Source: Candidatus Acetothermia bacterium (GTDB lineage Bacteria > Bipolaricaulota > Bipolaricaulia > Bipolaricaulales > Bipolaricaulaceae). From it: a stretch of 41,882 bases of DNA. A program made the position numbers and the translations under genes. Below the pieces are notes generated by a model. It was not told the DNA's origin, made no database searches, and worked only from the letters and a program-made list of their open reading frames with translations. Positions 3,577 through 7,067 of the stretch are shown here, piece by piece (position 1 is the stretch's first letter; every line of letters starts with the position of its first letter). The stretch is taken from contig JANLFW010000012.1 of assembly GCA_024653305.1 (NCBI GenBank), positions 1-41,882 on the forward strand, read 5' to 3'.

Positions 3577-4623
3577 GTGAACGCGTTCCGCAGGGCCGGT
3601 TTTGCGCTTGGGCGGTTCCCGCCTGGCCCCACCTGTTCCATCGCCGACGTCCCCGGGGTGGGGGTGGGCCACCGCACCCTCGTGCGGGGCGAAGGGGCGG
3701 AGGCGGTGCGGACCGGGGTCACCGCCATCCTCCCTCCCGGGGACCCGTACGCTGACCCCCTCCCGGCCGGGGCGTTCGTGCTCCACGGCCACGGGAAGGC
3801 CGTGGGCCTCGCGCAGGTCCGGGACCTCGGGGAGCTGGAGACCCCGGTGCTCCTCACCAACACCCTGGCCGTCTTCCGGTGCGCCGATGCCCTCGTCACC
3901 TGGACCCTCGCGCGACACCCTGAGGCGCGGTCGGTGAACCCCGTCGTCCTTGAGTGTAACGACGGCTACCTTTCGGCGATCGAGGCGCGGTCGGTGACCG
4001 AAGGTGATGCCCTGGCCGCGCTCGCGGCGGCCGGGGACGAAGTAGCGGAGGGATGCGTGGGAGCGGGTACGGGAATGGTGGCGTTTGGGTTCAAGTCCGG
4101 GGTCGGCACTGCCTCCCGCCAGGTTGGGCCGTTTGCGGTGGGGGCCCTCGCCCTCCCCAACATGGGCCGGCGCGAGGATGTTCGGTTCTTGAGGCGTCCC
4201 CCTCACCCTGGCCCTCTCCCACGAAGGGAGGAGGGCAAGGAAACTCCCTCCCCCTCGACGGGGGAGCGCGGGGGAGAGGGTGACGGAGGTTCCCTGATCG
4301 TAGTCGTGGCCACCGACGCCCCGCTTCTCCCCGGGCAGCTCTCGCGCCTCGCCCGCCGGGCGGCCCTCGGGGCGGCCCGCACCGGGGCCCCCGCGGATAC
4401 GGGGAGCGGCGACTTCTTCCTCGCCTTCTCCACCGGGTGGCGGATCCCCCGGGGGGTGGAGTCGGTGCGGGTGGAGTTCGTCCCCGACCGGTCCAAGCTC
4501 ATGGGGGACCTCTACCGGGCCACGGCCGAGGCCGCGGAGGAGGCGGTGCTCTCGGCCCTCTTCGCGGCGACGCCGATTGTCGGCCGCGACGGCCAGGTTG
4601 TCCCCACCTTGGTTCGTTCCTGA
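3577..4623 (+). CDS. P1/DmpA family aminopeptidase, with in-frame repeat insertion
   Basis: A 348-residue N-terminal-nucleophile hydrolase of the P1 (DmpA, L-aminopeptidase/D-esterase) family. These enzymes self-cleave before a Ser/Thr that becomes the catalytic nucleophile. Seen: TCSIADVPGVGVGH near residues 19-32, VGAGTGMVAFGFKSG at 161-175, LALPNMGRRE at 191-200, and GGSLIVVVATDAPL at 237-250 with Ser239 as predicted nucleophile; the C-terminal SGDFFLAFSTG is also typical. Start is the GTG one base after the ligase stop. Residues about 208-237, immediately before the predicted cleavage site, are encoded by a palindromic repeat found elsewhere between genes, read through in frame. The enzyme is likely still functional because this linker is variable in the family. 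Confidence 0.88.
   Translation: MNAFRRAGFALGRFPPGPTCSIADVPGVGVGHRTLVRGEGAEAVRTGVTAILPPGDPYADPLPAGAFVLHGHGKAVGLAQVRDLGELETPVLLTNTLAVFRCADALVTWTLARHPEARSVNPVVLECNDGYLSAIEARSVTEGDALAALAAAGDEVAEGCVGAGTGMVAFGFKSGVGTASRQVGPFAVGALALPNMGRREDVRFLRRPPHPGPLPRREEGKETPSPSTGERGGEGDGGSLIVVVATDAPLLPGQLSRLARRAALGAARTGAPADTGSGDFFLAFSTGWRIPRGVESVRVEFVPDRSKLMGDLYRATAEAAEEAVLSALFAATPIVGRDGQVVPTLVRS
4198..4292 (+). repeat. type-3 palindromic repeat inside the P1 peptidase gene
   Basis: The segment begins CCCCCTCACCCTGGCCCTCT and ends GGGGGAGAGGGTGACGG, matching the type-3 repeat blocks at about 28013, 33793 and 29040. It stays open in the reading frame of the peptidase and encodes a Pro/Gly/Arg/Glu-rich linker. 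Confidence 0.75.
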
Positions 4624-4729
4624 ACGTCAAAGCCCACGCTCGGCCGGCGCCCCACAGACCTCACCATCTAGAAACCTCCTCATCGATCTTGCTATCTGGC
4701 CGCGCCTATCATTGGGCCGGGTGATCGCG

Positions 4730-4960
4730 ATGAGGAAGAAGGTGGGGACGGTCATCGACGAGGAGCTTCTCCGCCAGGCCAAGCTCGTTGCCGCTCGCGA
4801 CAACCTGCGCTTGTCCCAGCTGATCGAGGACGCCCTCCGCCAGTACCTGCAGCGCAAGGGCCCAGCTGCGCAGGTCGACCGTTCTCGAGGAGCCCTGCGG
4901 GCCCCGCCGGAGTTGGTCCGCACGGTCATGGAGGAGGAAGAGGGGTTCCTTGACGCGTAG
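4730..4960 (+). CDS. VapB-like ribbon-helix-helix antitoxin
   Basis: A 76-residue protein starting MRKKVGTVIDEELLRQAKLV, the pattern of a ribbon-helix-helix DNA-binding antitoxin, followed by an acidic tail (MEEEEGFLDA) of the sort that blocks a toxin partner. The next gene, a PIN-domain protein, starts 11 bases before this stop. The ATG at 4730 was chosen because the RHH motif begins there; an in-frame GTG at 4721 is possible. Autoregulation is usual for the family but I could not assign an operator. Confidence 0.75.
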   Translation: MRKKVGTVIDEELLRQAKLVAARDNLRLSQLIEDALRQYLQRKGPAAQVDRSRGALRAPPELVRTVMEEEEGFLDA

Positions 4961-5477
4961 ACTCAGCGATGTCCCCGACGGGGCTCTGGTTTTCGTTGAC
5001 GCGAACATCTTCGTGTACCACTTCACCGGCGTTTCTGCGGAGTGCTCGCGGTTTCTGGCGAGATGCGAACAGGGGAACATCACGGGGCTTACCGGAGTCC
5101 ACGTCCTCCTTGAGGTGCTCCATCGGTTGAAGATGGTGGAGGCCGTGACCAGGGGTTTGGTGTCGCCCGGCAACGTGGCCCGGAAGCTGCGCGAACACCC
5201 CGAAGTCGTGAAGGAACTGTCCCAATCCGAGGAGCAGGCAGAGGTTGTCCTGAGGATGGGGGTGGGAGTCATGCCTGTTGACGACAGCATCCTTGTCGCG
5301 AGTCGGCAGTACCGCAGCACCTACGGGCTGATGGTCAACGGCTCCGTGACCGCGGCGATGGCCCGCCAGGCGGGGGTCGAGGCGATCGCCAGCTCGGACA
5401 AGGACTTCCTGCGGATCCCTGGATTCCGCGTGTACAGCCCGGGAGACCTACGTCCCAGACGGGAGAAGAAAGGCTGA
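4950..5477 (+). CDS. PIN-domain (VapC-like) protein with altered acidic residue
   Basis: A 175-residue PIN-domain protein; the family are Mg-dependent RNases and VapC toxins. Asp17 in VFVDANIFVY and Glu55 in VLLEVLHR match the first two conserved acidic residues, and SSDKDF (149-153) supplies the last. At the third position, usually Asp in a ...ND-A/S... motif, this protein reads LMVNGSVTAA with Gly131. That loss could weaken or abolish nuclease activity. The start is a TTG overlapping the antitoxin gene, preceded by GAGGAGGAAGAGG. Convergent with the decayed transporter at 5520. Confidence 0.78.
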   Translation: MTRRLSDVPDGALVFVDANIFVYHFTGVSAECSRFLARCEQGNITGLTGVHVLLEVLHRLKMVEAVTRGLVSPGNVARKLREHPEVVKELSQSEEQAEVVLRMGVGVMPVDDSILVASRQYRSTYGLMVNGSVTAAMARQAGVEAIASSDKDFLRIPGFRVYSPGDLRPRREKKG

Positions 5478-5519: not shown

Positions 5520-6067
5520 TCAGGCTGACGGGCGAGGCGCTGTGCGTCGCCGGGCGTTGGCGAGGGCGACGCCGCCGAGGAGAGAGAGCCAGCTCGGGAT
5601 CTCCCCAAGCCAAACCCAGGCGATCCCCCCGGAAACACGCCCAGGTAGACCACGGCCAGGATCGCCGACCACGGTGCGCCAGAGAGTGTAGAAAGGAGTC
5701 CGGGGAGGAAGACGAGCATCGGGATCGTCCCTGCCCAGAAGACATAGGTCGTGAACGCAAGCGGAGGATAGCGAGCAACGAACTTCTTCTGGAGCACGCT
5801 GTAGCCACTGGCGGAGATGGCGGCGAGAAGGACGACGAGGGCCCCAGGCTCGAGGCGCAACGCCTCCCCCTCCCCGAGGGTGATCAAGGTTACGCCCGCA
5901 AAGCCGATCGCGATCCCCAACCAGCCCCAGCGGCCCAGCTCTTCCTGGAGGAACAGCCGGGCGAGGAGGGCGGTGAACATCGGCGCGGAGGCGATGAGGA
6001 GGCTCGCTGCGCCAGCCGTGACCGCAACGGCCAGGGCGAGGGGGGCATCCAGGTGTGGCTTGTTCAT
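5520..6067 (-). pseudogene. EamA/DMT transporter remnant
   Basis: The minus strand encodes the middle of an EamA (drug/metabolite transporter) protein: a segment with LIASAPMFTALLARL, LGIAIGFAGVTLITLGEG, ISASGYSVLQKKFV and IPMLVFLPGL. The first several helices are missing; the open frame enters abruptly near 6067. After VVYLGVFPG the frame is lost, and a different frame continues with IAWVWLGEIPSWLSLLGGVA and a stop at 5520-5522, with at least two helices deleted between the two parts. N-terminal truncation plus internal deletion and frameshift make this a pseudogene. Confidence 0.8.
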
Positions 6068-6149
6068 CGGCGCAGTCGTCTGCCTCCGAGCACGGACCAA
6101 GGGCCGGCGTCGCGCTGTGGCCCCCGCCCTATTCCCCTTGTCCACGCAG

Positions 6150-6398
6150 CTACTCGATGCTGCGCACCCCGCGGAAGAGGCGCTCCAGTTCAGCGATCCG
6201 GCTTTCGACCAAGCCCTGCTCTTCCTTCGCCGCGTGGTATTCGGAGTTCTCCCCCAGGTCCCCCAGCTCCCGCGCCGCCCGCAGCCGCTCGATCACCTGG
6301 GGCCGCCGCACGCGCACGAGCTCGTCGAACTCCTTCTTGAACCGCTCGTAGCCCTCGCGGGTGAGAACGTTCCCTTCGTACTTGGGGGGTAGCTTCAT
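6150..6398 (-). CDS. greA: stand-alone GreA N-terminal coiled-coil domain
   Basis: An 82-residue protein that equals only the N-terminal half of transcript cleavage factor GreA (usual length about 158). The helical hairpin and its acidic tip are intact: ELGDLGENSEYHAAKEE, with Asp47 and Glu50 matching the catalytic pair that enters the RNA polymerase secondary channel. The stop comes after LERLFRGVRSIE, the normal junction to the FKBP-like C-terminal domain that docks on RNA polymerase. No frame downstream encodes that domain; a transporter remnant follows instead. A strong GGAGGGGAGG site precedes the ATG, 27 bases after the transaldolase stop. It is either a decayed greA or a minimal secondary-channel factor. 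Confidence 0.82.
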   Translation of the reverse strand: MKLPPKYEGNVLTREGYERFKKEFDELVRVRRPQVIERLRAARELGDLGENSEYHAAKEEQGLVESRIAELERLFRGVRSIE

Positions 6399-6425
6399 CC
6401 TCCCCTCCTTGGGATGGGTCTTGGT

Positions 6426-7067
6426 CTAGCTCTTGGGAACCTGCTGCCAATCCTTGAGGAACCGGGCGATCCCGGCGTCGGTGAGCGGGTGCGCGAACAG
6501 TTTCTTCAACACCTCGTAGGGCACCGTGGCGATCGGCGCCCCGAGCGTGGCCGCGCTCAGGACGTGCCCGGGGTGGCGGATGCTCGCTACGATCACCTCG
6601 GTCGGGAGCCCATAGTTCCGGAAGATCGTGAGGATCTCGGCCACTACGCTCATCCCATCTCCGCCGGCGTCGTCGATCCGGCCCACGAACGGGGACACGA
6701 AGTCCGCCCCACACTTGGCGGCGAGCAGGGCCTGGTTCGCCGAGAACACCAGGGTCACGTTGGTCCGGATCCCCTCCTTGGAAAGCACCTGCACCGCCCG
6801 GAGCCCCTCCGCGGTGATCGGGATCTTGACCACCACGTTCTCCGCCACCCTGGCGAGCTCCCGCGCTTCCCGAACCATGCCCTCGGCATCGAGGGCGGTG
6901 ACCTCGGCCGAGACCGGGCCAGGGACGATCCCGCAGATCTCCCGCAGCACCAGGGCTGCCGGCCGCTTCTCCCGGCTCAGCAGGGTCGGGTTGGTGGTGA
7001 CCCCGTCGATCAGCCATGCCATCTCGCGGATCTCGCTCACGTTGGCCGTGTCCAGATAGAGCTTCAT
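6426..7067 (-). CDS. small transaldolase / fructose-6-phosphate aldolase
   Basis: A 213-residue protein of the compact transaldolase subfamily (MipB/TalC/FSA type), an (alpha/beta)8 class I aldolase in the non-oxidative pentose phosphate pathway or fructose 6-phosphate cleavage. Motifs: [22 protein letters not shown] (22-33), NVVVKIPIT with Schiff-base Lys81, [30 protein letters not shown]. Length is typical. GGAGGGCAGG precedes the ATG. Sequence alone does not separate transaldolase from aldolase activity. It is first in a minus-strand unit with the GreA fragment. Confidence 0.92.

Follow-up and report, generated by a model that had tools for sequence, protein, structure and literature searches.

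A second GreA paralogue consisting of the antiparallel coiled coil alone is kept beside full-length GreA in six genera of a Candidatus Bipolaricaulota family

Gre factors are usually described as two-part proteins, with a coiled coil for the chemistry and a globular domain for docking. The stretch of DNA analysed here (the window; 41,882 nt, contig C12 of a Candidatus Acetothermia genome, G000, of 1.59 Mb in 73 contigs, 95% complete) contains a gene that encodes the coiled coil and then stops. A sequence-only reading of the window had offered two explanations, a decaying gene or a minimal factor that modulates RNA polymerase. The question raised by this locus is whether such a short gene is a remnant of greA or a protein in its own right, for which we coined the name GreN.

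The coordinates of the gene and of its neighbours are given in Table 1; the plus-strand reading of 6150-6398 was unrelated. The sole Pfam match of the 82-aa protein was GreA_GreB_N (PF03449; E=2.7e-27, residues 11-75), and the C-terminal docking domain PF01272 was absent from the protein, as judged by Pfam, and from the rest of contig C12 in any frame. The protein also missed the curated greA cut-offs of NCBIfam (TIGR01462, 80.8 bits vs 139; NF001263, 85.9 vs 145), as is expected because it ends after the coiled coil. When the profile of the short forms was compared with E. coli GreA (1grj), residues 6-76 were aligned and the profile then ended. In E. coli GreA, the coiled coil is formed by residues 5-76 and the globular domain by residues 91-158 (excerpt of PMC7527559), and the earlier claim that the protein ends at the boundary between the two was thus borne out. 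The tip residues Asp47 and Glu50, which had been noted as retained, aligned with D41 and E44 of the E. coli protein. An AlphaFold2 model with a mean pLDDT of 83 consisted of two helices and agreed with GreA 1grj to 1.0 Å at 46% identity over 70 columns. The strong ribosome binding site was likewise found as described, and GGAG or GAGG was present within 20 nt upstream in all 18 copies of the short gene that have a start codon.

Table 1 Features of the short gene and its neighbours in the window.
Feature	Position	Strand	Description
Stand-alone GreA N-terminal coiled-coil protein (GreN)	6150..6398	-	82 aa, ATG start, TAG stop
Shine-Dalgarno AAGGAGG	6404..6410	-	Ends 5 nt before the ATG of the short gene
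Helix 1 of the hairpin, residues 14-43	6270..6359	-	Predicted by AlphaFold2; ten-residue block mean pLDDT 83-97 over residues 11-50
Tip loop D47-L-G-E50	6249..6260	-	D47 and E50 invariant in 19/19 short forms; position 49 is G here, R or S in the other 18
Helix 2 of the hairpin, residues 52-76	6171..6245	-	Predicted by AlphaFold2
C-terminal end RGxR..D/E	6153..6173	-	R76, G77 and R79 invariant in 19/19 short forms; end of the protein coincides with E. coli GreA residue 76
fsa, fructose-6-phosphate aldolase/transaldolase-like	6426..7067	-	Next upstream of the short gene, same strand, 27 nt away
EamA transporter remnant	5520..6070 (approximate bounds)	-	About 231 nt missing, with a further gap and a weak match toward the 3' end, compared with G026

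When genome G000 was searched throughout in all six frames, two GreA N-terminal domains and one GreA C-terminal domain were detected, the latter in a full-length GreA on contig C15. A full-length greA is accordingly present elsewhere in the genome, and no C-terminal domain lies downstream of the short gene in any frame. A hidden C-terminal domain reached by frameshift or readthrough was ruled out by the same search, since six frames gave no second one. An assembly error behind the truncation was also ruled out, because the stop position recurs in 19 genomes.

To map the distribution of the short form, 100 genomes from the phylum Candidatus Bipolaricaulota were examined, 40 of which belong to the window's family (f1) and 60 to others. 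A GreA N-terminal domain was present in 92 of the 100 genomes. The short form occurred in 19, including that of the window; all 19 belong to family f1, none to the 60 others, and they represent six genera (g1, g4, g5, g6, g7, and g13). It was not found in 21 of the 40 family genomes, some of which are incomplete. Every other N-terminal-domain match in the 100 genomes lay in an open frame of at least 157 aa; in the other families, the second GreA, where present, was full length. A full-length version of the short gene was seen in none of the 40 family genomes. The short form is thus not absent or broken throughout the close relatives, and no intact two-domain counterpart of it was seen in them, which supports a conserved minimal protein. 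All 19 genomes with the short form have a full-length GreA beside it, and a C-terminal-domain search found exactly one such domain per genome, that of the full-length GreA; therefore, no partner half was found. The stop codon, TAG or TGA, fell within one codon of the common position in all 19, following an RG[AV]R..[DE] end and at most one further residue. These results show that the second GreA paralogue of this family exists only as an antiparallel coiled coil, kept in six genera beside full-length GreA.

Two features of the other GreA proteins in the phylum were recorded separately. The tip loop of the full-length GreA is lengthened, being HGGGD or HSGGD in g1, g4, g5, and g7 and HGGD in g2, g6, g9, g12, and g13 (RGGD in the single g12 sequence), compared with HGD in E. 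coli, and the tip Asp is replaced by Glu in 3 of 31 sequences (G046, G049, and G061). In family f4, open frames of 116-143 aa contain a GreA C-terminal domain at places where no N-terminal domain was detected (G052:C20:8861-9085, G053:C25:652-873, and G047:C24:19914-20126).

A tree was constructed from 89 N-terminal domains over only 77 columns. In addition to the short forms and the main GreAs, it included 13 second full-length paralogues and 26 of the 77 non-short loci from the wider genome scan described below; three of 34 full-length GreA regions, those of G047, G041, and G057, gave no sequence by motif and were omitted. The short form of G016 (61 aa, cut by the contig end) was retained in the tree but left out when the short forms were aligned, their ribosome-binding sites counted, and their mean charges calculated. 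The short forms made up one clade with a support of 85/91, and 89% of 200 bootstrap trees had them as a single group. A separate group (100/99) was formed by the 31 full-length main GreAs, among them the main GreA of every one of the 19 genomes. That the short gene recently broke off from the greA of the same genome was therefore rejected.

In the 18 aligned short forms, A42, R43, E44, G46, D47, E50, N51, and E53 were invariant. Another set of residues, V11, R19, R29, R40, V64, R73, G77, and R79, was near-invariant in the short forms and rare in the 26 GreAs from outside the phylum. Among the 31 full-length GreAs of the phylum, R79 was also found in 28, R19 in 17, and R29 in 14, so that not all of the base arginines are peculiar to the short form; R40, R73, and G77 are not common in that set. 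The hairpin base (the first 25 and the last 18 of 72 residues) had a mean net charge of +2.2 in the 18 short forms, compared with -0.2 in the 31 full-length GreAs, +1.1 in the 13 second paralogues, and -1.1 in the 26 from outside the phylum. The end, the canonical acidic tip, and the base of the short form are all conserved. The positive base is compatible with a new contact surface, but could also reflect common descent.

Selection on the short gene was estimated as dN/dS over its last 72 codons. The values were 0.026-0.156 in g4 and 0-0.038 in g7 (21 pairs in each genus; dS 0.42-2.08), indicating strong purifying selection on the short form in these two genera. A different result was obtained for the window's own genus, g1, in which two genomes from different species, G000 and G026, were compared. 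Their short genes differ by 7 nonsynonymous changes and 1 synonymous change (dN/dS about 2.4), as against 1/7 in the full-length greA, 18.8/27.2 in fsa, and 8/11 in lemA (Fisher p of 0.010, 0.022, and 0.043, respectively, with counts rounded). The probability of at least 7 nonsynonymous changes among 8 is 2e-4 at a dN/dS of 0.1 and 0.36 at neutrality. Judged against five g4 copies, L24F, R49G, L75F, and I80S were assigned to the window's lineage, all at sites otherwise conserved, and I36R to that of G026. The open reading frame in the window is intact. Constraint on the short form may thus be relaxed in g1, although this rests on eight changes between two fragmented assemblies and may be due to chance or sequence error.

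These data bear directly on the reading that the gene is a decaying or dead greA duplicate, which lost its C-terminal half by mutation and whose remainder is drifting. The excess of nonsynonymous changes in g1, the substitutions at conserved sites in the window's lineage, and the broken EamA gene next to it speak for such decay. Against this, the same short form with its stop within one codon recurs in 19 genomes of six genera, dN/dS does not exceed 0.16 in g4 or 0.04 in g7, and the ribosome-binding site is kept; among the genera in which selection was measured (g1, g4, and g7), decay is limited at most to g1. We therefore regard decay as an unlikely explanation of the short form as such, which 19 of 40 family genomes have in common; the part of the earlier suggestion that may stand is that the short gene is starting to decay in g1. 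From these sequence comparisons, the short form is apparently an old, functional Gre paralogue without a docking domain, not a decaying greA. A truncated-looking gene can thus be a conserved form common to many relatives.

The neighbourhood of the gene gave further information on its history. The transporter remnant that had been noticed after the gene was confirmed as a broken EamA gene, which in the sister genome G026 is a whole ORF of 297 aa. The fsa gene is next upstream of the short gene also in G026 and in the seven g4 genomes with the short gene; the two lie within about 30 nt of each other in the window, G013, G014, and G015 and about 290-510 nt apart in G026, G005, G006, G010, and G011. 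No fsa was present in the stretches examined in g7, g6, and g13. With this variable spacing and with fsa not seen near the gene in those three genera, an operon with fsa was discarded as a candidate and no functional connection is proposed. Where the stretch examined is long enough, G026 and the g4 genomes with the gene have DUF2207, lemA (divergent), fsa, the short gene, EamA, and a convergent S58 peptidase gene in this order; G014 had no S58 gene within the stretch examined. In the window, G026, and G006, EamA and S58 are separated by a PIN-type gene pair. In the window, positions 4725-5477 of the plus strand hold this ORF pair, a putative ribbon-helix-helix antitoxin and a putative PIN-domain toxin. 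The start of the translation of 3577-4623 resembles, as judged by eye, that of a g7 homologue with the Pfam name Peptidase_S58.

In g7, the short gene abuts the convergent S58 peptidase gene in all seven genomes that have it, with fsa not nearby; part of the locus is thus common to g1, g4, and g7, though gene neighbourhoods of the short form differ between genera. Four g4 genomes examined lack the gene at the conserved locus: fsa and S58 are adjacent in G004 and G012, without the short gene and EamA, and EamA is kept with the short gene gone in G008 and G009. This clean absence indicates that the gene can be lost cleanly and is dispensable.

For other phyla, a wider scan of genome contigs was evaluated at its best 80 loci. 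At 73 of these, the frame stayed open for at least 60 residues past the match, as it did at three more in the correct frame; these 76 were judged by the open frame and not by a C-terminal-domain profile. One locus ended at a contig edge, and the remaining three were short, apparently those of the family f1 genomes G023, G024, and G016. Viral contigs gave 124 pattern matches, none of which was confirmed as a relative. Carriage on plasmids or phages was not supported: the 60 plasmid records and the 19 phage-collection records that matched were all less than 60% identical, and annotation as greA was found for 5 of the ten plasmid matches listed, while 12 of the 15 phage matches listed had no annotation. 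Among the results listed by term searches of an open-access library, there was no natural N-terminal-only Gre factor.

How such a protein might act can be approached from the known division of labour in Gre factors. Cleavage and antipause activity have been assigned to the N-terminal domain and binding to RNA polymerase to the C-terminal domain (excerpts of PMC7104715, PMC7527559, and PMC3132773). Together with the near-identity of the short form to a laboratory N-terminal-domain construct, this division suggests a weakly binding secondary-channel factor. We consider it rather probable, from the conserved residues and the structural model, that the short protein is a natural single-domain Gre factor of low affinity that offers RNA polymerase a canonical acidic tip. 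The 82-aa hairpin would enter the secondary channel, where the D47/E50 pair would stabilise the second Mg2+ and water, and it would stimulate the cleavage of backtracked RNA or relieve arrest. Because it has no docking domain, the hairpin would bind weakly and briefly, and its action would accordingly be transient or confined to conditions in which the protein is abundant. Some of the contacts lost with that domain may be made instead by the arginine-rich base (R19, R29, R40, R73, R76, G77, and R79). Of the minimal RNA polymerase factor proposed by the sequence-only reading, the conserved minimal protein is supported by its presence in 19 of 40 family genomes, and its action on RNA polymerase would follow from the above model. 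Two published observations weigh on the other side. Specific binding to RNA polymerase and full activity are described as requiring both Gre domains (excerpts of PMC7527559 and PMC7104715), so that a lone hairpin could be nearly inactive; furthermore, Gfh1 and Rv3788 keep the acidic residues and yet show no cleavage according to the parts of PMC4598747 and PMC3132773 cited here, which counts against activity of the short form. Among the present results, the clean absence of the gene from some relatives, the nonsynonymous excess in g1, the occurrence of several base arginines in full-length GreAs, and the small number of columns in the tree also count against the model.

A variant of this model is possible but doubtful: the docking-free factor might make an RNA polymerase contact of its own through the arginine-rich base (R19, R29, R40, R73, and RGxR at 76-79), or it might work jointly with the tip-lengthened full-length GreA, the two dividing cleavage and another function between them. 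By analogy with Gfh1 and Rv3788, which inhibit, the hairpin might instead fill the secondary channel without productive docking and temper full-length GreA or RNA polymerase. Gfh1, Rv3788, and Rnk are reported to displace Gre factors, with Gfh1 and Rv3788 inhibiting catalysis (excerpt of PMC4598747), and a full-length GreA to compete with is present in all 19 genomes; however, a protein without the docking domain would be expected to bind more weakly than full-length GreA, the reverse of Gfh1 and Rnk, and its tip is that of a canonical GreA, which makes such a role improbable. That the hairpin no longer acts on RNA polymerase and is a scaffold for another partner would agree with the loss of the docking domain, with invariant base residues seldom found in GreAs from outside the phylum, and with neighbourhoods that vary between genera, but is very unlikely given that few parts of the 18 aligned sequences are as conserved as the acidic tip, on which active-site chemistry depends. 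The single-domain Gre factor is the reading that we prefer. A coiled-coil-only protein under natural selection makes the purpose of docking directly testable, and, with its 82 residues, it offers a minimal means to probe or modulate the active site of RNA polymerase.

Among known secondary-channel proteins, the short form resembles the N-terminal domain of E. coli GreA (1grj) in its fold, its acidic D/E tip, and the alignment over residues 6-76; unlike GreA, all 19 short forms are without the linker and the C-terminal docking domain, and the base is arginine-rich. The anti-Gre factors Gfh1 and Rv3788 also have a Gre-family coiled coil that enters the secondary channel (excerpt of PMC4598747), but both keep the C-terminal domain that is absent here, and Gfh1 matched the short form more weakly in sequence than GreA did. 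The two-domain layout of the Gfh1 type, in which the C-terminal domain switches orientation, has no equivalent in a protein that has no second domain. Rnk and TraR/DksA are likewise small secondary-channel factors; Rnk, however, consists of a short coiled coil and a C-terminal domain (both from the excerpt of PMC4598747). DksA and TraR have PF01258, which had no match in the short protein or in genome G000 and was found in 6 of the 40 family genomes. The closest counterpart is a laboratory GreA-NTD construct with a stop after codon 75, almost the same truncation point as in the short form, and overexpression of this construct was reported not to be lethal, unlike that of full-length GreA (both from the excerpt of PMC7527559). 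That construct is artificial, whereas the short form is natural, common to six genera, and under selection in at least two of them.
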